Shown: positions 1-55,199 of the stretch, piece after piece | How the letters are laid out: every line of letters starts with the position of its first letter | How positions within the stretch are numbered: the stretch's first letter is position 1 | Assembly (NCBI GenBank): GCA_030765065.1 | Contig: CM060990.1 | Coordinates: 420,741,198-420,805,197 of the forward strand | Length of the DNA: 64,000 nucleotides | Source: Deroplatys truncata | Lineage: Eukaryota > Arthropoda > Insecta > Mantodea > Mantidae | Reading direction: 5' to 3' | Position numbers and translations under genes: made by a program | The notes under the pieces: generated by a model | What the model saw: only the letters and a program-made list of their open reading frames with translations | What the model was told of the DNA's origin: nothing | Database searches by the model: none

Positions 1-290
1 TAAAACTTGCACCGCAAATATTACGTAAATGGAAAGTGCTATTGATGTGCAGTTTTCACAGCATTGATTGGGAGTCAGGAGCTCGTACATTTAGCCTATA
101 AACAGATTTCAATAATACTGAAAAAGTGTATTTTTGAGCAAACACACAATTTTCAAATGGAACAATGCCTAGTTACATCAATAGAATAAAGGTAAGTTAA
201 ATTAGAATGTCAGTGGCGTTTGTTGCAAGATTCTAGTGCAAGTGGTTTACGAGAAATCTTATTTTGAAACTTTTACGTACCGACACTTGT
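1..290. repeat. Left long terminal inverted repeat of the DUF4817-type transposon
   Basis: This stretch is the reverse complement of about 16322-16613 with scattered mismatches, seen by direct comparison. Shared blocks include GTGCTATTGATGTGCAG and AGTGGTTTACGAGAA. The outermost bases are cut off by the window edge. Confidence 0.85.
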
Positions 291-375
291 ACAACCTGTG
301 GTAGCACAAACTAAAGAAAAACAAAAGGGAATTACAATACTTCTGTGGATTCTTACAAGAAAAGAGAAACTAGCC

Positions 376-998
376 CTTCAAAGGTTGTGTTCAAAATGAC
401 CACCGGCACCTTCAATACACGCTTCCAGTCTGCTATGGAAACACGTTCTAGCGTTTCAGCGGAAATTTCAGAGCAGGCAGCAGTAATACTTCATTTCATA
501 TCGTCTGGTGTAGTTGGTACATCCTTGTAGACAGTCTCTTTCAGTCTTCCCCACAGAAAAAAGTCTAAAGGGGTCAGATCCAGTGAACGGGCCGGCCAAG
601 GTACAGGTCCTCTTTGTCCAATCCAAGGATTTTGAAACAATCCGTTAAGACAAGCTGTAGTACTTCGTGTACTATGGGCTGGACAGCCGTCATGTTTGTA
701 CCACAGGTTCCTCCTAGTCTGCAAAGGAACGTCTTCTAGCATCTGTGGGAGATGGTCTGTCAGGAGGCTGCGATACTTGTGCGAGTTCATTGTTCCTTCT
801 ATGAACAAAGGGCCTATGAGCTGATTGTTCACTATCCCACACCAAACGTTTAAACTCCATGGACGCTGACGTTGCACGAAGCCAAAGGGGATTGTCAACA
901 GACCAATAGTGCATGTTTCTGCGGTTTACCTGGCCAAGATTAGTAAATGTTGCCTCATCACTAAACAAGATACATGGTGAATCTGGAGTATCATGCCT
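376..998 (-). pseudogene. Transposase C-terminal (catalytic) half, DUF4817/DDE_3 type, frameshifted
   Basis: The minus strand encodes the catalytic part of an insect IS630/Tc1/mariner-like transposase. Visible landmarks in order are LFSDEATFTN (first catalytic Asp), NMHYWSVDNP, RPWSLNVWCGI, YKHDGCPAHS (second Asp, usually QDGAPPH) and SLDLTPLDFFLWG (third acidic residue). The first part (968 down to about 885) and the second (about 898 down to 491) are in different frames, so there is a frameshift around 870-890 just after the DNP motif. The second frame stops at 491, but family-like C-terminal residues (RLEACIEGAGGHFEHNL) continue to about 376 in another frame. The N-terminal half lies 14.8 kb away at 15764-16215. 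Confidence 0.85.
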
Positions 999-1002
999 TG
1001 AT
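997..1002. repeat. Left 6-bp target-site duplication of the giant palindrome
   Basis: CTTGAT lies immediately before the first base of the inverted repeat at 1003. The same six bases follow its last base at 15764-15769. The next base on either side differs, so the duplication is exactly six. Confidence 0.88.
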
Positions 1003-1014
1003 AGTAGGGGGTAA

Positions 1015-1265
1015 TGGTACCTTCTGGATCAATTAATGGCTTTTTAATTGGCTTAATTGATTTTAATTGGGTTTAATTGGTATTTCGTGTAAAGCCGACC
1101 CAAGTAGCGGGTACGTTCTGGATCAATTATTGGCTATTTAATTGGTTCAATTGGTTCAATTGGTCTTTCAGGCAAAGCCGACCCAAGTAGCATGTACGTT
1201 CTGGATCAATTAATGGTTATTTAATTGGTTCAATTGGTTTTAATTGGTATTTCGTGCAAGACCCG
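1015..1265. repeat. Subterminal tandem repeats of the palindrome, left end
   Basis: Three units of about 95 bases each carry the core TTCTGGATCAATTA followed by AATTGGTTCAATTGG-like runs and a GACCCAAGTAG or GACCTAAAG tail. They start near 1020, 1110 and 1195. The same set occurs inverted at the right end. Iterated subterminal motifs are common transposase-binding sites in DNA transposons; that role here is inferred. Confidence 0.75.
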
Positions 1266-1642
1266 ACCTAAAGTGCATGAGAGTTCACCATCAAATTTAT
1301 GGTTACTGGCGAGTTGACAGTTTGTCATTCCAGGCCACGTGGAGGGCTTTAGAGCAAGACCCGACCTAAACACCATGAGATTTGAACATCAAAATTTATG
1401 GTTATTGCTGGAGTTGGTAATTGCGAGGGTCGCTTACCTGTTCACGTGGTGACATTTACTTGAAGAAACATTTAAAGGCTCGTCCCTCCTCCTCGGCTTT
1501 GGGTGGGAGGAGGTAATCAAAATAATGTCTGCATTTCCAGTCAGCTATGAGACATGATTCACCCACTATAAAGTACACAGCGTTAATTCTAATCATATAC
1601 ATCACATAAAAATACAAGTTTCAATTTTTGTGGCGAACGCTC

Positions 1643-1849
1643 CTAACAACTGTAAATGTTTAAAAAATCGAAAGGTTTAATTTTCACCATCCTACCGGGA
1701 CTTGTTGCTTGTACGGGTCGATAACATGCTTTATTACGGCGAGAAATCACAAGCATTGAAAAAATAAAACACACTAGAGTCTTTTCTCCGTTACAGACCA
1801 CATCACAAGGGAATAATGATCTGGCACCTATGTCTGGAGATTCAATCAA
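1643..1849 (-). other. 68-codon open frame in the left arm, coding status doubtful
   Basis: An open frame of 68 codons begins with TTG rather than ATG and ends near 1643. Its twin at 14926-15132 differs by one residue (NGEK against NGDK). No domain, signal peptide or membrane segment is recognisable. Preservation in both arms is expected anyway from the low arm divergence, so it is weak evidence for a protein. It could be an exon or chance. Confidence 0.2.
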
Positions 1850-2394
1850 CGAGGGTGGCTTCCCCTCTCATATAACTCATGCTAGCCATTGTCAGACTCG
1901 TCCCCTACTGCTAAAGGTTCGCTTTTATCCACGCGAGATGTCAGAAGGCTACAGAACTATAGATACCAACAGTATCCAATCCGCTATTGATTTTTCATTA
2001 AAACTGCATGAGAGTCAAACACACATTAAATTATAATGAAAAAAGTTTCTTTATAGAGATAGCTAATTACTGTGTTACAAGCTGTATGTACAGTGAAATA
2101 AAAACGAATCGCATTTAAAAAATTCTCATATGTTACACTCGCATGATTTTCTCTACTCTTGTACAAACGTTTTTTTACAAATGCTTATTCTGCTTTGCTT
2201 CTACTAGCTGCAAGAGGAATACGGTAGGCTTTAAGCATTAGTAAAATCGTTTAAGAGCGGGTTGCCATGTGACGCATTCCATTCTCTTTACATGTCTAGG
2301 ACATAAACAAATGAATAACGAATTCGAGAAAAAATATAATTATTGGGGAATTTAAGGGAATAACAAGCAATATCTAGAAAATAGTTCTCAATAA

Positions 2395-2515
2395 AACAGG
2401 GGGCCTCAAAACATAAATATCCGGTGAAATCTCGTTATCGAATTTTTGGGTGGAATACAATACTTCCCTTACTTACTCTACATAGTAGAGAAATTTAAAA
2501 TACTTAGTCATAACA
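2395..2515 (+). repeat. Hairpin-end fragment of the dispersed repeat family, left arm
   Basis: The segment has the family signature: CTCAAAAC, TCCGGTGAAAT, AATTTTTGGGTGGAATACAA and a terminal hairpin ending in GTAGAGAAA. It matches the units of the 24777-26100 array. It is part of the palindrome, so a mirror copy exists at about 14265-14385. Confidence 0.75.
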
Positions 2516-2559
2516 ACGGGAAAGATGTCTTGTATCTTTTTTCCCACGAGGTGTAGGAT

Positions 2560-3700
2560 TCATACAATAAAGAGTAATTGAACAATGCCTTCATTATTTA
2601 ATTAACAGTACACCAAAAGGCAGACCATCTTTTACACAATAACTTAAGACATTTCCGGAACACGTGTTTGCTTTTGTAGAAAGAAATATCTAAATGATAC
2701 CTTCCTTCTAATGTAGATTCAAACGCAATTGTGGATTGATCATTTCCTGCACTATTTAAACAAGAGTACATAAAAATATATTACGTAAAGATGATCCAGC
2801 GTTCGATTTCATACTGAACTAAAGCTTGAAACAAATATTCAGTACTTAGGATGTTAAAGCAAGATTTAAAATGAATATAGGCGTTAAAATCATATTACAT
2901 CTCCACAGAAATTAAAATAATACAGAATACCAATATCAGAAGAAAATACAAAAGTAGGATAAAAATGAGAATGCAAGCACATTTAATAGCAGGTAATTGG
3001 GGGACTTTAGTTACTTTCAACTGCAACTTATTTTAACTCTAGCAACCTTAAGACAGGTCTTCTATTAGCAAAATTTATAGTTTTAAAGCAATTATTTTTT
3101 GAAAATGCTTCATTAACACGCTAATTAATGCAAATTAACTAAACTCTATTTTTTGTTGAAACTCTGTAATCTGCTAGAAAACAGCTTGCACATTATATAA
3201 AAAATACCCTTACACCGCACAAAAAGCTTATCATACTTAAAACTTAACCTAAAATGTAAAAATACTGAAAAAAATTGAAAATCAGTAATATGCTAGAAAA
3301 TGAAGTATAGAATATAGGAAAATTATTCTTTTCTTCATTCATCAAGTTTATATACCTAAAATGATTATTTCCAGACAAGACGCCAGTGAAGAAGAAATAC
3401 CAGTTCAGCGCCTGCGCTGGTATTATTATCTACTTACTGGGAGGTATATCAACGGTCTCCACTTCAACTCCAGACATGGTCAAACTTTGATGTTTAAAAC
3501 ACTTCTGTGCTATGGCACTTAGACATGCTTGACAAGTGCATTAAATTTTACAGCACTAATTGGAATGTTCCGAATAACTAGGCAAGTGTCCCTATGGTTT
3601 GTATCTCGGAATGGTAAAACATAAATGTTTAACTGCTAAACAACTGTGATACTCGCGTGGGATAATAATAATCCTACAGCATTATGTGGATATATTGGAG
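2560..3700. other. AT-rich noncoding part of the left arm
   Basis: No reading frame or recognisable repeat stands out here apart from its mirror image in the right arm (about 13060-14210). It is AT-rich with short A and T runs. Confidence 0.5.
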
Positions 3701-3762
3701 GGGGTTCTCAGGTATACGAGATCCAGATCGAGTTTTATCTTCGTTCTTTTTCTCTTTCTTGA

Positions 3763-3985
3763 TGTACATACATACATACATACATACATACCCACACACA
3801 TACAGACATACACACAGCCGAACACCTCCCCAAACACACGGACAGGTACGAAGACTTACGAATATATCCGAACATGCACATGCATACCGACTCATTCACG
3901 CAGATAAATACTCACAAACAAGCAGACTCAGAGATACTCACACACACAAATCACAAACAAGTAGACTCAGAGATATACATACACA
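3763..3985. repeat. CATA/CA microsatellite tract, left arm
   Basis: CATA tandem units (3763-3792) pass into degenerate CACA/ACAT sequence and a duplicated block containing AGACTCAGAGATA (near 3924 and 3963). Open frames across this tract are products of the repeat and are not annotated as genes. The mirror tract is at about 12780-13010. Confidence 0.8.
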
Positions 3986-5229
3986 TATATACTTCCAAAC
4001 ATCAGGAATGAGCGAAGACCTACGAGCACACTCGAACACATGTACAGGCAATATACACACACAGGAACATACCAAACACCAACAGAGAGAGACGCTCTTA
4101 CCTATATGCATGGGGGGCTCTGTTATAATATAGCTTCATATATGAGAGGCTCTGTCTTTTAGATGATTGTATTGATTAATGTAGCGGTGAAGATGACGGG
4201 AATTGCGGGATTAGGGAGCTAAGGTATTAATGGAGTTATGTGGTGGCGGTGGCGATTGTGTAGAGTTACGGCGCTGATGGAGGCAGGCGATGGTCATGGT
4301 CGTATAAGTTAATGTACTTGTAAGTGTGAAGGAGTATTTGTGATGGTGGTGATAGGAGGCGATGAGGATGGTTATATTGTCGGGAAGGCTTTTGGAAATG
4401 ATGGTGGTGATGAGAGGGGGTGTTCATTGTTTCGCTGATGCTGGTTCTTTTTTTGTGTGTAGAAGGGCACGCATTCATTACGAAGAAATACACTAACACC
4501 GTAAAACATACCGAAATGTTGCGAGTAGCACAAAATCTTTTATCAGTGTATAAAATGGTTTCAATGTCCTTACAACATCCTAGAATACTTATAAAGCGGG
4601 AAAAATGACTGCGAGCATGACGAATATACTTGCAAACGGTATCGAATTCCTTTTAAAGTGTTCAAAGTTCTCGATTTACGAGAACATTTAAGTGATGCAT
4701 GGATCCGATGAAGCTAGGACAGGCTCTCCATTCAGCATATAAGAGACCTCACCTAGATTAGGCTAGGAGCGGTAAAGGCAAGATAGCGTACATTGTGTAA
4801 AGCCACTTTAGGTTAGACTGGTTGAGGTTATGATAGGGGTCACAGATAATTAGAGGACGGGCTAGTTTATAGCTTTAAGTTATGATCGCTTGAATAGATG
4901 ATGGGGGCTGCTGACTAAGATTGATACACGTTAACATGCACGTCATCGAGCTAGGCTAGCTAATAGCAGACTGGACGTGAATCCTGCTTATACTATCTTA
5001 GGATAGGTTAGGATATTCAGTGCTAGCTAAGGACTGGATTGTTGGACAGATTATAAGAAATGGTATCATATTAGGCTAGATAATTACTGGGCAGAATACA
5101 TAACGCTAGGATAGTCTGGGAACAGGTAGAGTTAGGCTCGCACGATTGTCCGAGTTTGAAGAACAGGCTAGCATAGAATGTCTTAGGAATGGATTCGTCA
5201 TGATTGTCATGGTTGGCTGCGTTTCACGG

Positions 5230-5465
5230 TTAAGTTATTTACGTTAGTGGTTACATTGGTTACGTTTAGTGGTTACGTTGGTTACGTTTAGTGGTTACAT
5301 TGGTTACGTTTAGTGGTTACGTTGGTTACGTTTAGTGGTTACGTTGGTTACGTTTAGTGGTTACGTTGGTTACGTTTACTGGTTACGTTGGTTACGTTTA
5401 GTGGTTACATTGCTTACGTTTAGTGGTTACATTGGTTACGTTTAGTGGTTACGTTGGTTACGTTT
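5230..5465. repeat. 22-bp tandem array, left arm
   Basis: About ten to eleven head-to-tail units of GTTTAGTGGTTACGTTGGTTAC with a few C/T and A/G changes. The right-arm counterpart at 11285-11541 has a different unit arrangement, including half-units, so the array has changed since the arms formed. Confidence 0.9.
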
Positions 5466-5639
5466 TGGCTAGGTTGGACGATGACAAGATAGATAATGAA
5501 AGGATCTTTCAGAGTAGGTAAGGCAGGGATAGATTGGCTTAGGATGGTCGCTTGTAGCTGGGTTAGACTACTCCAAAGTACCTAAAACTAACCAATTCAG
5601 GGATTGTGCCTATCGGTCTCACATGTTAACTACTTAACA

Positions 5640-6960
5640 TACAGAAGCTTACAAAATTTAGAAAAAAAGGACTGAAAGTATATATATTTATTCTAATAAT
5701 GGATAAGAAATGCTTATAAAGTATCAAAAATCAGTGAAAAATACATTAACTCCTGAAATTAGAATAAATACTTGCTTTAATGCACTGACTTACAAATGAA
5801 ATTCCACTCTCCATATTACAATAGCATCCTAAAAGCATGTCACAATACCTCATTCACATCTTAAAATACACTGAAAGAGGCTCAAATTCTCTTACCAGAA
5901 ACTTTGAAAATAGCTGCAGCGCGCCTAAAGAACCATCAGAATACTGTAAAGATCTGAGGCAATATCATGAACATAACAGCTCCTACTTATAAAGCCGATC
6001 ATAATTTTCCAAAAACCTGTGTCTAATAGCTCATAAACGCCAGCTAAATGCTCTACAGTTCCTATTCCAGTGGCTAAAATGCAAGCAACATTTCTAAAAA
6101 TACACTACAATGCTTGTTACAGGATGAAAAATATATTCGAAATACCTACATCAATCCCTCCGTCTGTATTTTGAAAGATACTTTAAAAAAACATCATAAA
6201 GCATATTCAAAATGTTCTGAAAATCTTAAAAAAAGATGTATCAATATCCTGAAAATGAATGCTACTATTTTAAGAAACATCTAAAATTCCCATTCAAGTA
6301 TATCGGGATGTCCTTAAAGCCTGTACTCATATCTAATTCCATAGGCTGGAATACCTTTAAAGAGTCATAAATATGCATATGAAAAACTTCGAAAAAATAT
6401 AATTGGAAGTGTCACAATACCTTAAAAGAGCATAAAATGGCTCCACATAATCTTAAAACCCAGTAATTCTAAAAGCCCCTCAGGACACTCTAATGACATA
6501 AAAATACACGCTACACTTCTAAAAAGCCATTCAGAATCAGAACCATAAACAATACACATAAAAGTGTCAAGAGCATGTAAATACACTGTAAAATACGTCA
6601 AAATGCTAAAAAAGACCCTTAACGATATAATGAAATACATGGTGTAATTTCTAAAACCCTCGCACATAAATAGTTCACTGACAATACCATGAAGATAACT
6701 GCACCTCACTGTAAAAGAGTATCCTACTGACCTATACAATACAGCTAAAATACCTGTCACTATTTATAAAACCCATCAGCATACTCCAAAGACTTGGACT
6801 GCCCTAATTAAAATACATTCTCTTGTCTATAGAACCATCAGATTAGTCTAAAATGCTCAAAATATATGTATTAAACCTAAAATACACAAAGGATAAAATC
6901 TAAACATCAGGCTTTATTATGAATAGGGACAGAGGCTAGAAAGGCAAATCAAAAGAAACA
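5640..6960. other. Low-complexity quasi-periodic A-rich stretch, left arm
   Basis: Recurrent motifs such as TAAAATACAC, CATCAGAATA and CTTAAAA recur irregularly, suggesting an old degenerate tandem repeat. Long open frames (112 codons at 6422-6760 minus; 102 codons at 9996-10304 plus in the mirror) lie in this low-complexity sequence, have no recognisable domain, and their lengths differ between arms. I do not call them genes. Confidence 0.4.
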
Positions 6961-7116
6961 CTTAAGTCAATGGTGAAAATATCTTTATTGAGAATTATTA
7001 TTATTTGATTTTACATTAAGCAAACACTAGAGTATTGAACAGAAGCAAACAAAATTTTAACACACTCATTTCATTCAAATGCTAAAGCTCTTTTATTATA
7101 CAGAGTTCAGTCTCAA

Positions 7117-7665
7117 TCATGCTATAATCCCAGTCCTCTTCAATACTTGGATGATCTTATTAATCTCAATAGAAAAGTCGTTTTTACCAGCTTCATGCGA
7201 CATCATTAACAGCACTAGCTGGTGTACTAGGTCATTAGGATCTGTACAGGGATATAAAATCTCAATATTCGCCTTGGATACATCACCCACACTGGACGAG
7301 TTAACACTAAAATGTTTATTTTCACTCAGGTGATTATTCAGAGTTTCATCATCCAAAGACACTGCTCTTCTTACATCTAACATCCCTGGTCTTGAAGAGA
7401 TTTCAGTAGCACTCAGGGGTGATCCAAGCGCTTCACAGCTTAACTCTAACATCCCTGGCCTTGAATAGATTTCAGCATCACTTACGGGAGTTCTAAGTAC
7501 TGCACACTTCAATGATTCATTACTACATCTTTGCCGGTGTTGTTTAAGTCTTGAAATAGATCTGTTTTTTAAAATCCTACTGCACATACGACACTTGACA
7601 GAACGACTCTTCTCATGGGTAATATAGGAAAATGAAGCTTTTCGTAAGCTGGCTGTATTTGAATG
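7117..7665 (-). CDS. BED-type zinc-finger protein, left-arm copy
   Basis: The frame is open from about 7665 down to the stop at 7117; the first ATG is at 7587, giving 156 residues. That ATG sits inside the zinc finger, so the real protein probably starts in an upstream exon: a TACAG acceptor-like site lies near 7653, just before residues SLRKASFSYI. The finger reads VKCRMC, then His and Cys 15 and 19 residues after the second Cys (C-x2-C ... H-x3-C), the BED-finger pattern of hAT transposases and insulator-type DNA-binding proteins. Downstream, SDAEIYSRPGMLEL and SATEISSRPGMLDV form an internal repeat 23 residues apart, followed by an unassigned C-terminus. It differs from the right-arm twin at three residues. 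A role in binding the element's own DNA is inference. Confidence 0.5.
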   Translation of the reverse strand, partial: HSNTASLRKASFSYITHEKSRSVKCRMCSRILKNRSISRLKQHRQRCSNESLKCAVLRTPVSDAEIYSRPGMLELSCEALGSPLSATEISSRPGMLDVRRAVSLDDETLNNHLSENKHFSVNSSSVGDVSKANIEILYPCTDPNDLVHQLVLLMMSHEAGKNDFSIEINKIIQVLKRTGIIA

Positions 7666-8191
7666 TCAATAAGGGAATCCATGCTTGTTCTAGAATATCA
7701 TATACTGTATATGATTTCGAAGCTGCAGCCGCATATGTCATCAGGAGACTGTAGAATTATTTGCTTATTTCCTAATTTTATCGGTAATCTCACATCATTG
7801 ATAACCATAAACCTTACAGTCAAGTTATATAAGAAACGGGACTATGACAGAATTCCGCATTAATTGCAGCTACTCGATTAATTACATAAGCTCACCATGT
7901 ATGAAATGAAGTCTACCCTTACTTGTAATATTGGAGGATATATGACGCAACCTCTTTGAATATGTTAGCACTCGAATATGCAATGTTTCAAGGCTAGAAG
8001 GTCACACATACAGATCTTCATATGAAGAACCATACTACAGGGAAAGTGAGCAGTACACAAATTGAAGATTTCGAGACATGCTGAGGTCCCTAACGTTTCC
8101 AGGTTATAACATCTCACTTTACAAGTCCCCAATGTAACGACTCATTCCACATAGCAAGAGGAGAGGAGAGTCAACGAGGATCAACCGAGCA

Positions 8192-8566
8192 TTTTGTGAA
8201 GTCCTTAAATGTAATAAGATAATACCATATACCTACCAAAGTAACCAAAATATTCCCATACCTTGTAAATGTAACCAATATATTTCCATACCTTTTAATG
8301 TAATTAAAATATTTTCATACCTTCTAATGTAGTCAAAGTATTTCCATACCTTCTAAATGTAACCAATATATTTCCATACCTTCTAAATGTAACCAATATA
8401 TTTCCATACCTTGTAAATGTAACCAATATATTTCCATACCTTCTAATGTAATTAAAATATTTTCATACCTTCTAATGTAATTAAAATATTTTCACACCTT
8501 CTAATGTAGTCAAAGTATTTCCATACCTTCTAAATGTAACCAATATATTTCCATACCTTCTAAATG
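8192..8566. repeat. Central spacer of the palindrome: tandem repeats of about 30 bp
   Basis: This is the only substantial part of the element without an inverted partner. From about 8210 it consists of around eleven direct units ending in CCATACCTTCTAA, of two kinds: ATGTAACCAATATATTTC and ATGTAATTAAAATATTTTC. Higher-order duplication is visible because blocks of both kinds recur in the same order. Confidence 0.85.
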
Positions 8567-9090
8567 CTTGGTTGATCCTCGCTGACTCTCCTCTCCTCTT
8601 GCTATGTGGAATGAGTCGTTACATTGGGGACTTCAAAAGTGAGATGTTATCACCTGGAAACCTTAGGGACCTCAGCATGTCTCGAAATCTTCAACTTGTG
8701 TACTGCTCACTTTCCCTGTAGTATGGTTCTTCATATGAAGATCTGTATGGGTGACCTTCTAGCCTTGAAACATTGCATATTCGAGTGCTAACATATTCAA
8801 AGAGGTTGCGTCATATATCCTCCAATATTACAAGTAAGGGTAGACTTCATTTCATACATGGTGACCTTACGTAATTAATGGAGTAGCTGCAATTAATGTG
8901 GAATTCTGTCATAGTCCCGTTTCTTATATAACTTGACTGTAAGGTTTATGGTTATCAATGATGTGAGATTACCGATAAAATTAGAAAATAAGCAAATAAT
9001 TCTACAGTCTCCTGATGACATATGCGGCTGCAGCTTCGAAATCATATACAGTATATGATATTCTAGAACAAGCATGGATTCCCTTATTGA

Positions 9091-9639
9091 CATTCAAATA
9101 CAGCCAGCTTACGAAAAGCTTCATTTTCCTATATTACCCATGAGAAGAGTCGTTCTGTCAAGTGTCGTATGTGCAGTAGGATTTTAAAAAACAGATCTAT
9201 TTCAAGACTTAAACAACACCGGCAAAGATGTAGTAATGAATCATTGAAGTGTGCAGTACTTAGAACTCCCATAAGTGATGCTGAAATCTATTCAAGGCCA
9301 GGGATGTTAGAGTTAAGCTGTGAAGCGCTTGGATCACCCCTGAGTGCTACTGAAATCTCTTCAAGACCAGGGATGTTAGATGTAAGAAGAGCAGTGTCTT
9401 TGGATGATGAAACTCTGAATAATCACCCGAGTGAAAATAAACATTTTAGTGTTAACTCGTCCAGTGTGGGTGATGTATCCAAGGCGAATATTGAGATTTT
9501 ATATCCCTGTACAGATCCTAATGACTTAGTACACCAGCTAAGACTGTTAATGATGTCGCATGAAGCTGGTAAAAACGACTTTTCTATTGAGATTAATAAG
9601 ATCATCCAAGTATTGAAGAGGACTGGGATTATAGCATGA
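9091..9639 (+). CDS. BED-type zinc-finger protein, right-arm copy
   Basis: This is the inverted twin of the left-arm frame. It is open from 9091 to the stop before 9640; the first ATG is at 9169, but the first zinc-binding Cys (TGT at 9163-9165) lies upstream of it. An in-frame stop (TGA, 9088-9090) blocks further extension and no ATG precedes the finger, so an upstream exon joined at the TACAG site near 9103 is likely. Compared with the left copy it has Ile for Val, Pro for Leu and Arg for Val. It has the same C-x2-C ... H-x3-C finger and the same internal repeat. A polyadenylation-like AATAAA at 9767-9772 lies about 130 bases past the stop. Confidence 0.5.
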   Translation, partial: HSNTASLRKASFSYITHEKSRSVKCRMCSRILKNRSISRLKQHRQRCSNESLKCAVLRTPISDAEIYSRPGMLELSCEALGSPLSATEISSRPGMLDVRRAVSLDDETLNNHPSENKHFSVNSSSVGDVSKANIEILYPCTDPNDLVHQLRLLMMSHEAGKNDFSIEINKIIQVLKRTGIIA

Positions 9640-11284
9640 TTGAGACTGAACTCTGTATAATAAAAGAGCTTTAGCATTTGAATGAAATGAGTGTGTTAAA
9701 ATTTTGTTTGCTTCTGTTCAATGCTCTAATGTTTGCTTAATGTAAAATCAAATAATAATAATTCTCAATAAAGATATTTTCACCATTGACTTAAGTGTTT
9801 CTTTTGATTTGCCTTTCTAGCCTCTGTCCCTATTCATAATAAAGCCTGATGTTTAGAGTTTATCCTTTGTGTATTTTAGGTTTAATACATATATTTTGAG
9901 CATTTTAGACTAATCTGATGGTTCTATAGACAAGAGAATGTATTTTAATTAGGGCAGTCCAAGTCTTTGGAGTATGCTGATGGGTTTTATAAATAGTGAC
10001 AGGTATTTTAGCTGTATTGTATAGGTCAGTAGGATACTCTTTTACAGTGAGGTGCAGTTATCTTCATGGTATTGTCAGTGAACTATTTATGTGCGAGGGT
10101 TTTAGAAATTACACCATGTATTTCATGCTATCGTTAAGGGTCTTTTTTAGCATTTTGACGTATTTTACAGTGTATTTAGATGCTCTTGTCACTTTTATGT
10201 GTATTGTTTATGGTTCTGATTCTGAATGGCTTTTTAGAAGTGTAGCGTGTATTTTTATGTCATTAGAGTGTCCTGAAGGGCTTTTAGAATTACTGGGTTT
10301 TTAGATTATGTGGAGCCATTTTATGCTCTTTTAAGGTATTGTGACACTTCCAATTATATTTTTTCGAAGTTTTTCATATGCATATTTATGACTCTTTAAA
10401 GGTATTCCAGCCTATGGAATTAGATATGAGTACAGGCGTTAAGGACATCCCGATATACTTGAATGGGAATTTTAGATGTTGCTTAAAGTAGTAGCATTCA
10501 TTTTCAGGATATTGATACATCTTTTTTTAAGATTTTCAGAACATTTTGAATATGCTTTATGATGTTTTTTTTAAAGTATCTTTCAAAATACAGACGGAGG
10601 GATTGATGTAGGTATTTCGAATATATTTTTCATCCTGTAACAGGCATTGTAGTGTATTTTTAGAAATGTTTGCTTGCATTTTAGCCACTGGAATAGGAAC
10701 TGTGGAGCATTTAGCTGGCGTTTATGAGCTATTAGAGACAGGTTTTTGGAAAATTATGATCGGTTTTATAAGTAGGAGCTGTTATGTTCATGATATTGCC
10801 TCAGATCTTTACAGTATTCTGATGATTCTTTAGGCGCGCTGCAGCTATTTTCAAAGTTTCTGGTAAGAGAATTTGAGCCTCTTTCAGTGTATCTTAAGAT
10901 GTGAATGAGGTATTGTGACGTGCTTTTAGGATGCTATTGTAATATGGAGAGTGGAATTTCATTTGTAAGTCAGTGCATTAAAGCAAGTACTTATTCTAAT
11001 TTCAAGAGTTAATGTATTTTTCACTGATTTTTGATACTTTATGAGCATTTCTTATCCATTATTAGAATAAATATATATACTTTGTCCTTTTTTTCTAAAT
11101 TTTGTAAGCTTCTATATGTTAAGTAGTTAACATGCGAGACCGATAGGCACAATCCCTGAATTGGTTAGTTTTAGGTATTTTGGAGTAGTCTAACCTAGCC
11201 ACAAGCGACCATCCTAAGCCAATCTATCCCTGCTTACCTGCTCTGAAAGATCCTTTCATTATCTATCTTGGCATCGTCCAACCT

Positions 11285-11541
11285 AGCCAAAACGTAACCA
11301 ACGTAACCACTAAACGTAACCAATGTAACCACTAAACGTAACCAGTAAACGTAACCAACGTAACCACTAAACGTAACCAACGTAACCAGTAAACGTAACC
11401 AACGTAACCAGTAAACGTAACCACTAAACGTAACCAACGTAACCACTAAACGTAACCAACGTAACCACTAAACGTAACCAATGTAACCACTAAACGTAAC
11501 CAACGTAACCACTAAACGTAACCAATGTAACCACTAACGTA
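11285..11541. repeat. 22-bp tandem array, right arm
   Basis: Inverted counterpart of 5230-5465 with units of GTAACCACTAAACGTAACCAAC plus half-units and GTAACCAGTAAAC variants. It is slightly longer than its partner. Confidence 0.9.
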
Positions 11542-12779
11542 AATAACTTAACCGTGAAACGCAGCCAACCATGACAATCATGACGAATCCATTCCTAAGA
11601 CATTCTATGCTAGCCTGTTCTTCAAACTCGGACAATCGTGCGAGCCTAACTCTACCTGTTCCCAGACTATCCTAGCGTTATGTATTCTGCCCAGTAATTA
11701 TCTAGCCTAATATGATACCATTTCTTATAATCTGTCCAACAATCCAGTCCTTAGCTAGCACTGAATATCCTAACCTATCCTAAGATAGTATAAGCAGGAT
11801 TCACGTCCAGTCTGCTATTAGCTAGCCTAGCTCGATGACGTGCATGTTAACGTGTATCAATCTTAGTCAGCAGCCCCCATCATCTATTCAAGCGATCATA
11901 ACTTAAAGCTATAAACTAGCCCGTCCTCTAATTATCTGTGACCCCTATCATAACCTCAACCAGTCTAACCTAAAGTGGCTTTACACAATGTACGCTATCT
12001 TGCCTTTACCGCTCCTAGCCTAATCTAGGTGAGGTCTCTTATATGCTGAATGAAGAGCCTGTCCTAGCTTCATCGGATCCATGCATCACTTAAATGTTCT
12101 CGTAAATCGAGAACTTTGAACACTTTAAAAGGAATTCGATACCGTTTGCAAGCATATTCGTCATGCTCGCAGTCATTTTTCCCGCTTTATAAGTATTCTA
12201 AGATGTTGTAAGGACATTGAAACCATTTATACACTGATAAAAGATTTTGTGCTACTCGCAACATTTCGGTATGTTTTACAGTGTTAGTGTATTTCTTCGT
12301 AATGAATGCGTGCCCTTCTACACACAAAAAAGAACCAGCATCAGCGAAACAATGAACACCCCCTCTCATCACCACCATCATTTCCAAAAGCCTTCCCGAC
12401 AATATAACCATCCTCATCGCCTCCTATCACCACCATCACAAATACTCCTTCACACTTACAAATACATTAACTTATACGACCATGACCATCGCCTGCCTCC
12501 ATCAGCACCGTAACTCTACACATTCGCCACCGCCACCACATAACTCCATTAATACCTTAGCTCCCTAATCCCGCAATTCCCGTCATCTTCACCGCTACAT
12601 TAATCAATACAATCATCTAAAAGACAGAGTCTCTCATATATGAAGCTATATTATAACAGAGCCCCCCATGCATATAGGTAAGAGCGTCTCTCTCTGTTGG
12701 TGTTTGGTATGTTCCTGTGTGTGTATATTGCCTGTACATGTATTCGAGTGTGCTCGAAGGTCTTTGCTCATTCCTGATG

Positions 12780-13015
12780 TTTGGAAGTATATGTGTGTGT
12801 ATGTATATCTCTGAGTCTGCTTGTTTGTGATTTGTGTGTGTGAGTATCTCTGAGTCTGCTTGTTTGTGAGTATTTATCTGCGTGAATGAGTCGGTATGCA
12901 TGTGCATGTTCGGATATATTCGTAAGTCTTCGTACCTGTCCGTGTGTTTGGGGAGGTGTTCGGCTGTGTGTATGTCTGTATGTGTGTGGATATGTCTGTA
13001 TGTATGTATGTACAT
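12780..13015. repeat. GTGT/TATG microsatellite tract, right arm
   Basis: Mirror of the left-arm CATA/CA tract, but with fewer pure TATG units than the left arm has CATA units. Open frames here are repeat products. Confidence 0.8.
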
Positions 13016-14264
13016 CAAGAAAGAGAGAAAGAACGAAGATAAAACTCGATCTGGATCTCGTATACCTGAGAACCCCCTCCAATATATCCACATAATGCTG
13101 TAGGATTATTATTATCCCACGCGAGTATAACAGTTGTTTAGCAGTTAAACATTTATGTTTTACCATTCCGAGATACAAACCATAGGGACACTTGCCTAGT
13201 TATTCGGAACATTCCAATTAGTGCTGTAAAATTTAATGCACTTGTCAAGCATGTCTAAGTGCCATAGCACAGAAGTGTTTTAAACATCAAAGTTTGACCA
13301 TGTCTGGAGTTGAAGTCGAGACCGTTGATATACCTCCCAGTAAGTAGATAATAATACCAGCGCAGGCGCTGAACTGGTATTTCTTCTTCACTGGCGTCTT
13401 GTCTGGAAATAATCATTTTAGGTATGTAAACTTGATGAATGAAGAAAAGGATAATTTTCATATATTCTATACTTCATTTTCTAGCATATTACCGATTTTC
13501 AATTTTTTCAGTATTTTTACATTTTAGGTTAAGTTTTAAGTATGCTAAGCTTTTTGTGCGGTGTAAGGGTATTTTTTATATAATGTGCAAGCTGTTTTCT
13601 AGCAGGTTACAGAGTTTCAACAAAAAAAATAGTGTTTAGTTAATTTGCATTAATTAGCGTGTTAATGAAGCATTTTCAAAAAATAATTGCTTTAAAACTA
13701 TAAATTTTGCTAATAGAAGACCTGTCTTAAGGTTGCTAGAGTTAAAATAAGTTGCAGTTGAAAGTAAATAAAGTCCCCCAATTACCTGCTATTAATTGTG
13801 CTTGCATTCTCATTTTATCCTACTTTTGTATTTTCTTCTGATATTGGTATTCTGTATTATTTTAATTTCTGTGGAGATGTAATATGATTTTAACGCCTAT
13901 ATTCATTTTAAATCTTGCTTTAACATCCTAAGTACTGAATATTTGTTTCAAGCTTTAGTTCAGTATGAAATCGAACGCTGGATCATCCTTACGTAATATA
14001 TTTTTTATGTACTCTTGTTGAAATAGTGCAGGAAATGATCAATCCACAATTGCGTTTGAATCTACATTAGAAGGAAGGTATCATTTAGATATTTCTTTCT
14101 ACAAAAGCAAACACGTGTTCCGGAAATGTCTTAAGTTATTCTGTAAAAGATGGTCTGCCTTTTGGTGTACTGTTAATTAAATAATGAAGGCATTGTTCAA
14201 TTACTCTTTATTGTATGAATCCTACACCTCGTGGGAAAAAAGATACAAGACATCTTTCCCGTTG

Positions 14265-14385
14265 TTATGACTAAGTATTTTAAATTTCTCTACTATGTAG
14301 AGTAAGTAAGGGAAGTATTGTATTCCACCCAAAAATTCGATAACGAGATTTCACCGGATATTTATGTTTTGAGGCCCCCTGTTTT
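14265..14385 (-). repeat. Hairpin-end fragment of the dispersed repeat family, right arm
   Basis: Mirror of 2395-2515. The opposite end of the family, GTAGAGAAAATCATGTGAG, is found at about 14623-14641. This suggests a shortened copy of about 380 bases was trapped in the arm before or when the palindrome formed. Confidence 0.7.
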
Positions 14386-14925
14386 ATTGAGAACTATTTT
14401 CTAGATATTGCTTGTTATTCCTTTAACTTCCCCAATAATTATATTCTTTCTCGAATTCGTTATTCATTTTTATGTCCTAGACATGTAAAGAGAATGGAAT
14501 GCGTCACATGGCAACCCGCTCTTAAACGATTTGACTAATGCTTAAAGCCTACCGTATTCCTCTTGCAGCTAGTAGAAGCAAAGCAGAATAAGCATTTGTA
14601 AAAAAAAGTTTGTACAAGAGTAGAGAAAATCATGTGAGTGTAACATATGAGAATTTTTTAAATGCGATTCGTTTTTATTTCACTGTACATACAGCTTGTA
14701 ACACTGTAATTAGCTATCTCTATAAAGAAACTTTTTTCATTATAATTTAATGTGTGTTTGTCTCTCATGCAGTTTTAATGAAAAATCAATAGCGGATTGG
14801 ATACTGTTGGTATCTATAGTTCTGTAGCCTTCTGACATCTCGCGTGGATAAAAGCGAACCTTTAGCAGTAGGGGACGAGTCTGACAATGGCTAGCATCGT
14901 TGTATGAGAGGGGAAGCCACCCTCG

Positions 14926-15132
14926 TTGATTGAATCTCCAGACATAGGTGCCAGATCATTATTCCCTTGTGATGTGGTCTGTAACGGAGATAAGACTCTA
15001 GTGTGTTTTATTTTTTCAATGCTTGTGATTTCTCGCCGTAATAAAGCATGTTATCGACCCGTACAAGCAACAAGTCCCGGTAGGATGGTGAAAATTAAAC
15101 CTTTCGATTTTTTAAACATTTACAGTTGTTAG
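14926..15132 (+). other. 68-codon open frame in the right arm, coding status doubtful
   Basis: Mirror of 1643-1849 with one residue changed. It opens with a non-ATG codon and has no recognisable domain. Confidence 0.2.
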
Positions 15133-15499
15133 GAGCGTTCGCCACAAAAATTGAAACTTGTATTTTTATGTGATGTATATGATTAGAATTAACGCTGTGT
15201 ACTTTATAGTGGGTGAATCATGTCTCATAGCTGACTGGAAATGCAGACATTATTTTGATTACCTCCTCCCACCCAAAGCCGAGGAGGAGGGACGAGCCTT
15301 TAAATGTTTCTTCAAGTAAATGTCACCACGTGGACATGTAAGCGACCCTCGCAATTACCAACTCCAGCAATAACCATAAATTTTGATGTTCAAATCTCAT
15401 GGTGTTTAGGTCGGGTCTTGCTCTAAAGCCCTCCACGTGGCCTGGAGTGACAAACTGTCAACTCGCCAGTATCCATAAATTTGATGGTGAACTCTCATG

Positions 15500-15750
15500 C
15501 ACTTTAGGTCGGGTCTTGCACGAAATACCAATTAAAACCAATTGAACCAATTAAATAACCATTAATTGATCCAGAACGTACATGCTACTTGGGTCGGCTT
15601 TGCCTGAAAGACCAATTGAACCAATTAAATAGCCATTAATTGATCCAGAACGTACCCGCTACTTGGGTCGGCTTTACACGAAAGACCAATTAAACCCAAT
15701 TAAAATCAATTAAGCCAATTAAAAAGCCATTAATTGATCCAGAAGGTACC
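15500..15750. repeat. Subterminal tandem repeats of the palindrome, right end
   Basis: Inverted counterpart of 1015-1265: units with TAATTGATCCAGAA cores near 15570, 15640 and 15730, separated by ACTTGGGTCGGCTTT. Confidence 0.75.
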
Positions 15751-15763
15751 ATTACCCCCTACT

Positions 15764-15769
15764 CTTGAT
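15764..15769. repeat. Right 6-bp target-site duplication of the giant palindrome
   Basis: CTTGAT directly follows the terminal ACT of the element and matches 997-1002. Confidence 0.88.
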
Positions 15770-16215
15770 GTCCATGTACAAAGGTTAACACGATTCTCAA
15801 AATCGTTAACATGCAACTCTTGATGGAGAGACATGTGATACAGATGGAACCTATGTCGATGGAGAATGCGCAGTACACATGCCTGTCTTATGCCACTTCC
15901 ACGTGCGATTGTGCGGGAACTAATTTGCGGATCTACTGCAACGGCAGCCAAAACATAAATTTCTGCCTCTTCTCCAGTCACTTGTTTGTTTCTGTTACGT
16001 TTTCTAAGTGTTACAGCACCACTTTCACGTAATTGGTTTAAGAGGTTGAAAAATAATTGCCGAGGTGGTTGACGTCTATTGGGATACGTTTCCGCATACA
16101 CCGTACAGGAACGAACTGCATTCTTCCTACACTCTCCATACACCATGAGCATGTCGGCTTTTTCTGCATTAGTAAACCCAATCTTCCACTTACGACTTAC
16201 TGCTTGAACTGTCAC
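15764..16215 (-). pseudogene. Transposase N-terminal half (DUF4817 helix-turn-helix part)
   Basis: The minus strand encodes the DNA-binding front of the transposase. FTNAEKADMLMVYGECR and YPNRRQPPRQLFFNLL are hallmarks of the DUF4817 helix-turn-helix domain common in insect transposons. They are followed by SSRTIARGSGI (second HTH), VLRILHRHRFHLYHMSLHQEL and the linker to the catalytic domain. The frame begins with GTG at 16215 after an in-frame stop; the first ATG is at 16152, inside the family-conserved region, so the original start may be lost. At 15769-15764 the sequence enters the target duplication, and beyond that it reads into the palindrome. The codon phase on this side matches that of the catalytic half at 998, so the two were one gene. 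Confidence 0.87.
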
Positions 16216-16321
16216 AAACTAACTGACCAGAAAGTCGCAATGCAATCAATGAACAGAGAACACAATTGAAATAAAACATAACAACATCGTACCTAGCAAC
16301 TAAGCAGGTTGAATGGGACAA

Positions 16322-16613
16322 ACAATTGTCGGGGTGGAACTTTTCAAAATACGACTTCTCGTAAACCACTTGCACCAGAATCCTGCAACAAAGACCATTG
16401 ACATTCTAATTTACTCTACCTTTATTCTGTTGATGTAACTAGGCGTTGTTCCATTTAAAAAATTGTATGTTTGCTCAAAAAATACACTTTCTCAGTATTA
16501 TTAAAATCTGTTTATAGACTAAATGTACGAGCCTCTGACTACCAATCAATGCTGTGAAAACTGCACATCAATAGCACTTTCCATTTCCGAAATATTTGCG
16601 GTGAAAGTTTTTG
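16322..16613. repeat. Right long terminal inverted repeat of the DUF4817-type transposon
   Basis: Inverted match to 1-290. It extends about 20 bases beyond what is visible at the left because the window cuts the left end. The likely terminal motif is GGTGATTCACCC at 16613-16624. Confidence 0.83.
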
Positions 16614-16639: not shown

Positions 16640-17114
16640 GAACGCCATCCTGCAAAAAGTTACTGAAAGGAAGTTCAGAATTTGGAACCAATATTAGCCG
16701 TTCCTGAGCAGATTTCTTCCATCTTCACTTCAGGTGAACTGAAATGCTTCTCTAACACCGGTGTTCCATTGAAAGAAATATCAACATATGCAGCAATGAT
16801 ACATACATGGAGAAAATTTGTCATCTATTACTGCCTAATCCTTCTGGCAGAAACATTCTGCTAAGGTGCCTACACTAAGTATTCTGGCAATGAAGGCAAT
16901 TATGGTTCCTCCACCATCTGCTTCAGTTGAGAGCAGCTTTTCTAAGCTCAACTGGATTTTAAATTCAAAACGGTCGTGTCTGACAGAAGAAAATATTGAA
17001 TCTGACCTAAAATATGCAATTAATCAGCATGAAGAGATTGGTACAGAGACAGAGTTACACAGACGACTAGATTTTCATTCTTTAGCTATAATTTCTTATT
17101 GTAGTGTGTTCTAG
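16640..17114 (+). pseudogene. hAT transposase C-terminal dimerisation region, remnant
   Basis: The frame 16866-17114 encodes PTLSILAMKAIMVPPPSASV followed by ESSFSKLNWI and LTEENIESDLKYAIN. This is the hAT C-terminal dimerisation motif (small residues, then ESxFSK, then LTxENI). Upstream, 16640-16864 has related-looking sequence in other frames broken by stops, for example SFWQKHSAKV running directly into the motif. Only the last 80 or so residues are readable. The catalytic core and N-terminal BED finger are missing. It lies just outside the right end of the DUF4817-type transposon, so that transposon may have inserted in or beside a hAT relic. Confidence 0.75.
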
Positions 17115-18407: not shown

Positions 18408-19335
18408 ACTTGTGTGATACACTCATGACTTTCTCTACCTACTATCGTTTATTTTTACATAGCTTTTACAAACTATTGTTGTAAAAGCTTAATTTTCTAT
18501 CTGCTTAATGTTGATCGAAATAATGTTTGCATAAATAGTTTAATTACACATTTCGTTGTAGGCACATACACGAGGGATACAGGAAATCAAAAGACAGTCA
18601 AATGTTAAAAAGCGGTTCGCTATATGCTGGCGTGAAATTACATACTCATTCCATGACATCGCGAGAAACAACTGAAGCGCAACAGCACTCAAAAGTAAAT
18701 AATTAGTTTGAAAATGTAAAACATTAGTTTGAAAAATTCAGAGTAATAACAAATGGTATCTCAGAAATGGCTAATGCCACAAAAAGGTTATTTGAAATGA
18801 ATTGTGTACTTTAAAGATATCTTCATTTTTAGTATACATTTGTCTACCTTTTGTGGTTTATCACTTACCTACACAGCATTATATGAAATTCCTTCCGAAT
18901 GACGGAATGAAGGAATTTCACAGGCTCTTCCCAGGAAATTCAACACATACTTACACTTTATTTCATATATAAATATCTTAAATACCTGTATGACAATCTA
19001 ATCAAAATGGTTACAGCCATTTTTGAAAAAGTAAAAAAATAGGCACTTTTTTCCCATGTAAAGAATAGTATGGGGTGAGGGGACTGCCTTGAAAGTTTGT
19101 GTCTCTCATCTTTGAAGGATACGGAACTTAATACTAAGTTTGGTAAGTATCCGACTTTTCGTTTTTTAGTTATACTGTTCACATACACGGACCATTTTCT
19201 AAAAATCCTTTGTTTGAATTCAGGGGGTTCAAAACATACATTACCGGTGAAATTTCGACATCGAATTTTTCGATGAAATACAATACTTCCTCTACCTACT
19301 GGATATGTGGTAGAGAAAGTAAAAATATGTCCTTC
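18408..19335 (+). repeat. Near full-length copy of the hairpin-ended dispersed repeat
   Basis: The copy begins near GATACACTCATGACTTTCTC and ends with a hairpin, CTTCCTCTACC ... GGTAGAGAAAG (about 19287-19322). In between are family blocks such as AATCAAAATGGTTACAGCC, CATGTAAAGAATAGTATGGG and the 19220-19320 segment that matches one unit of the 121-bp array. There is no coding capacity. The class is unknown; a hairpin end is reminiscent of Helitron-like elements but no diagnostic end was confirmed. Confidence 0.65.
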
Positions 19336-24240: not shown

Positions 24241-24776
24241 CTATTTGCAGTTGAGAGAAGCATAAAGTATTTGAAAATTCAAACTAATAACAAAGAACAT
24301 TTCAGAATAGGTAAAACATAAAAGTTATTTGAAATAAAATAGAAATGTTAGCTGATACAAATTTTGTGTCTAACAAGATCTTCAGTTGTTGTTCCGTAAG
24401 ATTTTGTCTCTCTCTTACGACTTACTAATTATCAAAAGTCATTGACAATAAAGACTAATTTACAGACTATTCCTAGAACATAAAACATATACATTCTATT
24501 TATCATGAAAATAGCTTAAACTTATGTATTTTAATCAAAATCCTTAGAGTCATTTTTGAAAGAATGAAAAATTTCGAAAAATGTGCAATGTAAAGAGTAG
24601 TTTGGAGTGGAGGATTTTCTTTAAAATCTCAGTGTCGCATTCTTGGAAGAAGTTGAACCTAAACACCAAGTTCGGTTTTTAACCAACCTTTTGCTTTTCA
24701 GTATGCTATTCGTGGATACACACAATCACTCAAACACACATACACACTTGAAACGTTTTCTAAAAATAAATTCATT

Positions 24777-26100
24777 GGATTCAGGGGTCACAAAAGTGAT
24801 TTCTGGTGAAATTACAACATTGAATTTTCAGATGGAACACAATACTTTCTCTACTTACTGTAGCTGCGTAGTAGAGAAAGTAAAAAGGCTTACTTTGGAT
24901 TCAGGGGTCTCAAAACGTGTATTTCCGTTGAATCTCGTTATTCAATTTTTGGGTGGAATACAATGCTTCCTCTACTTACTGTAACTACGTAATAGAGACA
25001 GTAAAAATGTTTTCTTTGGATCCAGAAAGTCTCAAAACGTGTGTATCCGGTGAATCTCGTTATTCAGTTTTTGGGTGGAAAACAATAATTTCCCTACCTC
25101 CTGTAGCTACGTAGTAGAGAAATTAAGAATGCCTTGTTTGGATTCAGGGGTTCTCAAAACGTGTATATCCGATGAATATCATTCAATTTTTGGGTGGAAC
25201 ACAATACTTGCTCTACTTGACGACACTACGTAGCAGAGAAAGTAAAAACGGTTTGTTTGATTTCAGGGAGTTTGAAATCGAATACTTCCGTTCCGAGTAT
25301 TAATCCCTTTATTCAATTTTGGGTGGAATGCAATACTTGCTCTTCTTGCTGTAATTACCTAATAGAGAATGTAAAAATGCTTTCTTTGGATTCATGGTGT
25401 CTCAAAATGTGTATTTGCGGTGAATATCGTTGAATTTTTGCGTGGATTACAATACTTTCCCTACCTCGTGTAATTACGTAGTAGAGAAATTAAAAATACT
25501 TTCTTAGGATTCAGGGGGTCTCAAAACGTGTATTTCCGGTGAATCTCTTTATTGAATTTTTGGGTGAAATACAATACTTTCTCTACCTCCTGTAGCTATG
25601 TATTAGAGAAGGTAGTAATGCTTTCTTTGGATTCAGGGTGTCTCAAAGAGTGTATTTCCGGTGAATCTCTTTATTGAATTTTTGGATGAAATACAATACT
25701 TTCTCTACTTCTGTAACTACGTAGTAGAGAAAGTGAAAATGGTTTCTTTGGATTCAGGGGTCTCAAAACGTGTATTTCCGTTGAATCTCGTTATTCAATT
25801 TTTGGGTGCAACGCAATGCTCTCTCTACTTACTGTAACTACGTAGTAGAGAAACTAAAATGCTTACTTTGGATTCAGGGGTCTCAAAACGTGTATTTCGG
25901 TTGAATATCGTTATTCAATTTTTTGGTGGAACACAATACTTCCTCTGCTTACTGTAAGTGCGTAGTAGGGAAAGTAAAAATGTTTTATTTGGATTCAGTA
26001 GGTCTCAAAAGGTGTATTTCCGGTGAATCTCGTTTTTTAATTTTTGGGTTGAATACAACACTTTCCCTACGTATTATAGGTAAATAGTAGACATTAAAAA
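24777..26100 (+). repeat. Tandem array of about 121-bp units, 11 copies
   Basis: GGATTCAGGGG-like unit starts fall at 24777, 24896, 25018, 25140, 25260, 25388, 25507, 25629, 25750, 25870 and 25991, a spacing of 119-128. Each unit has TCTCAAAACGTGTATTTCCG, AATTTTTGGGTGGAATACAA and an imperfect hairpin, TTTCTCTACTTACTG ... GTAGTAGAGAAAG. The unit equals the terminal segment of the dispersed hairpin family, and the array directly continues a family copy. Confidence 0.9.
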
Positions 26101-26811: not shown

Positions 26812-26823
26812 AGTCAATGTCGA

Positions 26824-27120
26824 TGATGATATGCGGTTTAAGGGCGCTAAGCTGCCATGGTCATCAGCGCCCTCACAAAGTATAAAATTGAAGGTCCAAA
26901 AATAAAATACGAGTAAAAAACCGCATAGTCAAAAATACTCTAAAATCAGTCATCAATAGCTAAAACCACTATAAAAGCCAAGTGAAACAATTCAATAAAA
27001 TAGTAAAACGAGTCAAGAACTGTAGAACGCATAGGACATGAGCGTCATATGTCCACAGGGGAGTAGAGCCCCCATTAAAACGGCAATATAAAATCATAAT
27101 GTTAAAGGACGCTCAACGCA
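26824..27120 (-). promoter_or_regulatory. LINE copy 1 3' UTR with terminal stem-loop
   Basis: Near the 3' end, AGGGCGCT and AGCGCCCT form an 8-9 bp perfect stem around a loop of about 18 bases (26847-26873). The stem is kept in copy 2 (48126-48162) and copy 4 (63895-63930). A conserved 3' stem-loop is a plausible reverse-transcriptase recognition structure. That role is inferred. Confidence 0.65.
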
Positions 27121-30794: not shown

Positions 30795-30815
30795 TAAGAA
30801 AAAGGGTTAAACTGT

Positions 30816-32132: not shown

Positions 32133-32744
32133 CCGTCTCCGACCTCGGGCTCTGACTTCCCGGGCGTTACCCCGGCTTGGGTGAGTGGCCTATCTATACC
32201 TATCTCACCCCAAGGTCACACCTCCCAGAACATACACAGAGGGACCCAATGGCCGTCAGAAGTCAGCAGCTCATGCAATGGCCCTCCGCGGGATTGCAGT
32301 TGAACAGCGGATACGAACACAAACCCTACATGACGACCCCGGGTGGTGGGGATGACGTCATTACCCACTCACAAAGCTGCGCACGTCGTGCGCGGGTATC
32401 CGTCAGGCTGTGTCCACGGAGGATTAAAATAAAAGGTTAAAAGGAACTAAAAGTGTGTGGGCGTTTCGCACTCAAAGTAGGCCGGCGGAGAAGGAAAAGA
32501 GATGTGTAAATGCATGGAAGTGGTGCGAAATTTGCATAAATAGAAGAGAGAATACAGAAACGATGGCAAGGGCGTCATGGAATGAAATGCACAGAACGCA
32601 CGAGAGCCCACCTTGAGTCCCCCGGTCACGAGAACGAACCCAACTCGACCGGACGGGGATGAAGCGATGAAGATGGCAATGAGTGTCTCGGGAACCCCCG
32701 GGTACGCCAACACCCGTACTCACATAAGGTGAGCCTCTGGGGGG
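32133..32744 (-). promoter_or_regulatory. LINE copy 1 5' UTR
   Basis: The segment between ORF1 and the 5' target duplication is closely matched upstream of ORF1 in copies 2 and 3 (ending at 57115 and about 55172). An internal promoter is expected for this element class; no specific motif was identified. Confidence 0.7.
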
Positions 32745-55172: not shown

Positions 55173-55199
55173 AATAAAAGGGATAAAATTCTTATTTAG

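Follow-up and report, generated by a model that had tools for sequence, protein, structure and literature searches.

How does a mobile element come to consist almost wholly of its own mirror image? This question is raised by a stretch of 64,000 nucleotides (hereafter the window) from the mantis Deroplatys truncata, taken from the forward strand of contig CM060990.1 (C16 below, 707 Mb) of assembly GCA_030765065.1, positions 420,741,198 to 420,805,197, which near its start carries an element of two long inverted arms around a short spacer. We suggest, with a probability of roughly three in four (0.77), that it is a palindromic, non-autonomous derivative of a Maverick (Polinton), made by snap-back copying, with hairpins replicating as palindromes and with integration by Maverick enzymes. 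A first-pass annotation of the window had named replication or folding back at one end as a possible origin, and this is supported by a sister palindrome elsewhere in the genome, which folds at a 9-bp inverted repeat of its Maverick parent.

The window element and its insertion site

The annotation had placed a near-complete palindrome of 14.8 kb at 1003-15763 and a perfect duplication, CTTGAT, directly outside it; the coordinates proved exact and the duplication is present. When the window is compared with itself by blastn, 8562-15763 aligns against 8194-1003 at 97.91% over 7225 columns, with 95 mismatches and 19 gap openings, the mismatches (1.3%) being distributed all along the arms. The parts are as follows.

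1003-15763, no strand: the element, 14,761 bp, two inverted arms and a spacer (blastn of the window against itself)
1003-8194, + strand: left arm, 7.19 kb, 97.9% inverted match to 8562-15763
8195-8561, no strand: central spacer, 367 bp, a tandem array with units of about 31 bp (unit length estimated by eye)
8562-15763, - strand: right arm, inverted copy, 7.20 kb (blastn self-match)
997-1002, no strand: left target-site duplication CTTGAT, same letters as 15764-15769
15764-15769, no strand: right target-site duplication CTTGAT, a perfect 6-bp copy of 997-1002

The element starts with AGTAGGGGG and finishes with CCCCCTACT, ends of the AGTAG...CTACT type. It interrupts a mariner-like repeat spanning 2-16611 (DUF4817 match, 1.2e-12); with the two flanks joined and the duplication given once, this repeat was uninterrupted at 91-92% in all 40 scored mariner copies (1012 first-look candidates), and these empty sites agree with the duplication. 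Palindromes are a known class of assembly artefact, and chimeric or hairpin reads could produce them. Given arms that are 1-2% different with their mismatches spread out, duplications that enclose the whole, uninterrupted empty sites, and one architecture that recurs at many separate loci, we consider such an origin so unlikely here as to be almost negligible.

Kinship with coding Mavericks

Searching the assembly (4.29 Gb) with the first 398 bases of the element, much as the annotation had proposed, gave 43 matches, with 40 of 864 candidates scored, and uncovered both other insertions and a coding relative. Besides the window element (W), the matches include nine inverted pairs, eight of which (copies A-H) are palindromes with main arm blocks about 96-99.7% alike. 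With an inverted end of just 271 bp, the ninth, I, is no palindrome; it is a Maverick with ends and ~270-bp terminal repeats in common with the window element and with a perfect duplication, CAGCAG.

The expectation that an intact relative would encode polymerase and integrase was borne out by the open reading frames (ORFs) of Maverick I, the one complete copy in which gene content was read. Pfam recognises DNA_pol_B_2 (1.2e-17), an rve integrase (5.5e-12), a Pox_A32 packaging ATPase (7.8e-06), a phospholipase-A2-like domain (4.7e-13) and, in two parts, a double-jelly-roll capsid (1.3e-39 and 7e-51), together with a match to an adenovirus-type protease under the cut-off; the type of polymerase is assigned from the DNA_pol_B_2 match. 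Priming of the Polinton/Maverick polymerase by a terminal protein is described in a passage of PMC6431247. A viral-contig scan with the capsid protein found no match, nor did a PDB search, and PHROGs gave weak matches only: the ATPase resembled a Zot-like family (0.0004), which we interpret as a shared P-loop, and another ORF resembled tail-fibre-like proteins (best 0.00035). The interior of Maverick I also holds a Gypsy-like element with reverse transcriptase and integrase ORFs. A search with a PolB fragment, in which 106 of 18,573 first-look candidates were scored, yielded 107 matches, and by our own count 28 of these rows have a stop codon in the searched stretch. A second polB group, at 71% to I (C16:290611328, C5:165688746, C4:175113438 and C8:117196683), is perhaps another Maverick lineage.

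Set against the ends of Maverick I, the window element shows the following parts.

1003-1272, + strand: Maverick terminal inverted repeat, about 270 bp with internal sub-repeats, 97.4% to the right end of Maverick I
15503-15763, - strand: Maverick terminal inverted repeat, right end, 94.8% to the right end of Maverick I
1956-2623, + strand: left-end module of the coding Maverick, element positions 954-1621, 97.5% to the left end of Maverick I
2832-3370, + strand: diverged Maverick left-end sequence, element positions 1830-2368, 83.9% to positions 2636-3168 of I

The stretch 1003-1272 also falls within a 90.8% match to the left end of I. The module at 1956-2623 has no match to the right end of I and was matched at 97% in the genome search; by comparison with the two ends of I, the left-end module is present at both ends of the window element, and the right-end module was not seen. 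Among the ten ORFs of at least 80 amino acids in the element, a Pfam scan found no family above cut-off (Proteasome, 0.079, and Ripply, 0.075, were sub-threshold), and recognised no transposase and no Maverick enzyme, thus neither the PolB nor the integrase of an autonomous Maverick. This agrees with the annotation, in which no standard transposition gene was visible.

Long inverted arms, and ten ORFs in which no transposase is recognised, would also suit an undescribed superfamily resembling Foldback or Galileo, with inherently very long terminal repeats in inverted orientation and merely Maverick-like ends, and the annotation had allowed for an undescribed group. It does not look so: the arms start with the left end of a Maverick that codes for PolB, rve and capsid, and the 6-bp duplication and AGT-type ends match those of Mavericks (for vertebrate Mavericks, a passage of PMC8097293 gives 6-bp duplications and (AGT)2//(ACT)2 ends). 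For palindrome D, described below, the idea is refuted, as each of its arms contains part of the polB gene. We hold this explanation to be highly improbable. The ends, repeats and 6-bp duplications show the window element to be derived from Mavericks/Polintons, presumably as a non-autonomous form; this is what the annotation had thought possible, and the genome does contain coding Mavericks that share these ends and carry 6-bp duplications.

Abundance and target-site duplications

A 35-base motif from the terminal repeat occurs 1027 times in the genome, compared with 0 occurrences of the reversed control; since one end may hold several copies, the elements are fewer than these occurrences. Among the first 100 of the 1027 matches, as listed, we counted by hand 18 end pairs and 14 unpaired clusters. 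Classed by comparison with the left and right ends of Maverick I, the pairs comprise 10 left-left palindromes, one right-right element and seven complete left-right Mavericks/Polintons of about 16-25 kb, all seven with polB matches inside; in the complete copies other than I, the ends alone were read. As the listed matches cover C1-C11 only, 11 of 18 is a sample figure and not a genome fraction. With at least 10 left-left palindromes among the matches listed, palindromic elements are not rare in this genome, a refinement of the annotation, which had called DNA transposons of such a build rare.

The expectation that all insertions carry 6-bp duplications held for the most part. Both flanks were seen in 24 elements, the seven complete copies included, and the duplication is perfect in 21 of them, one of which (C1:189.82) bears one extra AGT at its left end; two others share five of six bases, as judged by eye, and the remaining one is undecidable owing to a simple repeat. 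For the first nine palindromes, W and A-H, the duplication is perfect in every case.

A palindrome folded from a Maverick

Palindrome D (C6:74.6 Mb) is made of the leftmost 6.36 kb of a Maverick and its fold-back copy: it tracks Maverick I to base 6362 and then returns from base 6306, at about 96% in two main blocks and, for the terminal parts, at about 94% in separate blocks. The overlap at the junction is 9 bp, AATATGTCT and AGACATATT, which form an inverted repeat with a 47-nt loop in the polB gene of I, and the fold point lies exactly on this repeat. A 100-base query for the D junction was found at full length in D alone, that is, at one of 40 scored places (231 first-look candidates); at the other 39 the halves of the query adjoin on opposite strands, which is the unfolded polB order, so that D has the look of a birth that happened once and recently. 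Because its target-site duplication, GTCACT, encloses the entire palindrome, folding preceded the integration of D. In the window element the 6-bp duplication likewise lies outside the whole palindrome, which thus entered the chromosome complete, as a single unit.

Inverted duplications are known to arise when breaks are repaired by folding back, and the palindromes might accordingly have formed in the chromosome, either by such repair of a broken copy or by head-to-head insertion of two Mavericks and loss of the DNA between them. A perfect 6-bp duplication encloses 21 of the 24 elements, however, which chromosomal folding would fail to produce, and the D junction falls exactly on the 9-bp inverted repeat; we therefore regard formation in the chromosome as very doubtful.

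We suggest snap-back copying during replication instead. Replication would be primed at one end, and where the nascent or displaced strand halts, its 3' end would snap back on a short inverted repeat and copy to the original terminus. The product would be a hairpin with one terminus; replication starting there would unfold it, yielding a complete palindrome whose two ends are identical. The polymerase and integrase would be supplied in trans by Mavericks. In later cycles, a strand of the palindrome would again fold to a hairpin, and both arms would be rewritten from one. After integration, the centre would be prone to one-sided deletions, giving off-centre spacers.

Lineages and their amplification

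By their interiors the nine palindromes form three groups: A, B, E, F and G; W, C and H; and D. One centre is common to the first group, in B a 9-bp inverted repeat with a 56-nt loop; measured against B, the inner portion of one arm is missing from each of A, E, F and G, with the loss reaching the centre or crossing it. The tandem-array centre of the window type is also found in C6:130.63, C7:78.76 and C5:199.79. In a search with the inner arm of the window element, 40 of 40 scored matches (416 first-look candidates) lie at 98-100%, and all are close palindrome-type copies or unpaired: eight of the listed matches form close inverted pairs, and the others are unpaired among the 40, a consequence of the number scored. 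The window palindrome type has amplified, which refines the picture given by the annotation: the window's own lineage is itself an amplified palindromic type. Amplification is shown for palindromes of two lineages, this one included, and within each of the two the compared copies have the same centre.

An old copy of the B-type lineage, X, passes through the B centre, with each arm about 81% to B and the arms 93.6% alike. For a second old copy, Y, no matching opposite arm was found in the fetched piece. We infer that the B-type lineage was palindromic before X and B split, that the arms were later made alike again, and that arms diverge once integrated.

At C15:105.68-107.44 Mb, ends of window-lineage palindromes occur every ~170-260 kb (once ~480 kb) across 1.8 Mb, as if a large palindrome-bearing segment had been duplicated several times. 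A short palindrome within this cluster was considered as a new junction; a C-type copy with an internal deletion would explain it equally well, and it was not counted as a birth.

Concerted change of the two arms

When a tree is built from the terminal 1.7 kb, the left and right arms come out as sisters in eight of nine elements, and 181 of 217 arm differences involve at least one state private to the element. The terminal groupings (F, G, H; W, B; A, C, D, E) are discordant with the interior groups, and end modules therefore seem to have been exchanged, equally in both arms. In the window lineage, the region of a 156-amino-acid ORF differs by 0-1.27% within eight arm pairs, whereas the remaining pairings of the 24 arms average 1.64%. 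Arm similarity within a copy mostly exceeds that between copies, and the arms of the old copy are further apart.

Several observations weigh against the reading that we favour. The unfolded parent has been read for one left-left palindrome only, D. For B, none was found among four fetched diverged places (75-82% matches), two of which run into or through the B centre and then match the opposite arm, resembling old palindromes, while the remaining two match the B centre region and scattered end pieces. The birth of the window lineage is unreadable because its centre is a tandem array. Both right-right elements look like products of template switching rather than of tight snap-back: C6:121.78 has arms of ~3.4 kb with a 2-bp overlap (duplication AATGAG), C16:630.0 has an inverted right end of 2.05 kb joined with a 16-bp filler to an otherwise unique Maverick part (duplication AAGGTG), and they fold with long unpaired stretches, of 1.5 kb and ~9.7 kb. 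The hairpin stage we infer from sequence, no hairpin molecule having been observed. As to the arms, those of copy A are not resolved as sisters, its left arm appearing to carry inserted sequence; 36 of the 217 arm differences have both states in other elements; the between-copy range in the window lineage, 0-4.91%, overlaps the within-copy distances; and the arm comparison for old copies comes from a single one, X. Differences between the arms show overdispersion in B, C and F (P 0.000-0.007), with a weak effect in H (0.047); identical runs, at their longest, exceed the uniform expectation in five of six arm pairs (P 0.011-0.034).

Since differences are clustered and identical runs long, some local chromosomal gene conversion is possible, the process that keeps the arms of Y-chromosome palindromes similar. 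One could go further and accept the Maverick origin while attributing the likeness of the arms to ongoing conversion in the chromosome rather than to regeneration in each cycle. Against this, the X arms are 6.4% apart, compared with 0.8-2.3% for younger copies in the terminal 1.7 kb (3.9% for A, which includes misaligned inserted sequence), so that arms seem to diverge with age, and in W and D the differences are consistent with a uniform distribution (P 0.33 and 0.22). We thus find conversion an improbable cause of the overall likeness and retain rewriting of both arms during replication.

It seems to us an even question whether palindromic Mavericks are a self-sustaining replicon form, cycling via a half-length hairpin with both arms rewritten each round, or dead by-products. 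If they do cycle in this manner, the half-length hairpin would explain both the concerted arms and the symmetric exchange of end modules, and palindromes would out-amplify their coding parents as defective genomes do.

An ORF carried in both arms

The ORF listing places the 156-amino-acid ORF in each arm of the window element.

7117-7587, - strand: 156-amino-acid ORF, left-arm copy
9169-9639, + strand: 156-amino-acid ORF, right-arm copy

It is open in 22 of 24 arms of the window lineage, with 39 nonsynonymous, 17 synonymous and one nonsense variant and a rate ratio of 0.63, which is suggestive of selection without amounting to a test. Copy C carries a longer form, the C-terminus of which is 56% identical over 43 amino acids to an ORF of Maverick I and which has a sub-threshold BED zinc-finger match. 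Each arm of the window lineage may harbour a gene, particular to this lineage, for a zinc-finger-like protein.

Other features of the window

The interrupted host repeat and its surroundings complete the picture of the locus.

2-996, - strand: part of the mariner-like host element, with one terminal repeat at 2-269 (joined-flank genome match)
15770-16611, - strand: remainder of the mariner-like host element, with the terminal repeat at 16342-16611 and a DUF4817 helix-turn-helix ORF

An NCBIfam scan of two mariner ORFs found no match. Adjoining the host element, an ORF at 16866-17114 has a hAT dimerisation domain (9.4e-06). Self-comparison of the window further reveals large direct repeats at 84-86%, apparently duplicated blocks (26822-30742 and 48108-52013; 30800-32743 and 55176-57116; 27467-29260 and 52012-53796). 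Positions 24761-26100 form a degenerate tandem array that repeats about every 120 bp, with related pieces at 19054-19327 and 36973-37258 and also within the arms of the element, at 2397-2502 and 14276-14381.

Relation to known elements and significance

The window element is like Polintons/Mavericks in its ends, 6-bp duplication and terminal inverted repeats, and has coding relatives in the same genome; it is unlike them in being nearly all palindrome, with the left-end module at both ends and no recognised Maverick gene. In derivatives of protein-primed linear replicons and in invertron plasmids, inverted sequence is likewise explained by snap-back or panhandle intermediates (invoked for invertron plasmids and adenovirus in a passage of PMC1864894), whereas here the products are integrated and flanked by target duplications, and some lineages have amplified. 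Foldback and Galileo elements, and a palindromic hAT-derived miniature inverted-repeat transposable element (MITE) in cod, mentioned in a passage of PMC12368964, share the long or palindromic inverted arms and the scant unique interior; by their descriptions they are set apart, belonging to other enzyme families with no tie to PolB or rve. Like MITEs and other non-autonomous elements with terminal inverted repeats, the palindromes are presumably moved in trans by coding relatives; unlike MITEs, they are no plain internal deletions, and the second end was apparently made anew by copying the first. Symmetric recombinants of adenovirus, and hairpin or deletion derivatives of killer plasmids, belong to the same background, and our literature search found no paper on them. 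That search, covering the open-licence literature with subscription papers and Repbase beyond its scope, also found no description of palindromic Polintons, and none is given in the relevant parts of PMC6431247, PMC2836005, PMC1864894, PMC12368964, PMC5182062, PMC4028283 and PMC8097293.

This family of mirror-image mobile DNA most likely arose by Mavericks folding back and copying one of their own ends. To our knowledge, the replication mode of Mavericks/Polintons is largely inferred from relatives; the genome studied here holds apparent fossil replication products, in the form of a 9-bp fold-back junction, integration of whole products and concerted arms, and hairpin replication of a chromosomal virus-like element becomes testable by sequence. 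A route is shown from giant transposons to long near-perfect palindromes, DNA of a kind generally considered unstable. It can thus be read from sequence alone how linear elements can become self-complementary parasites that keep multiplying.

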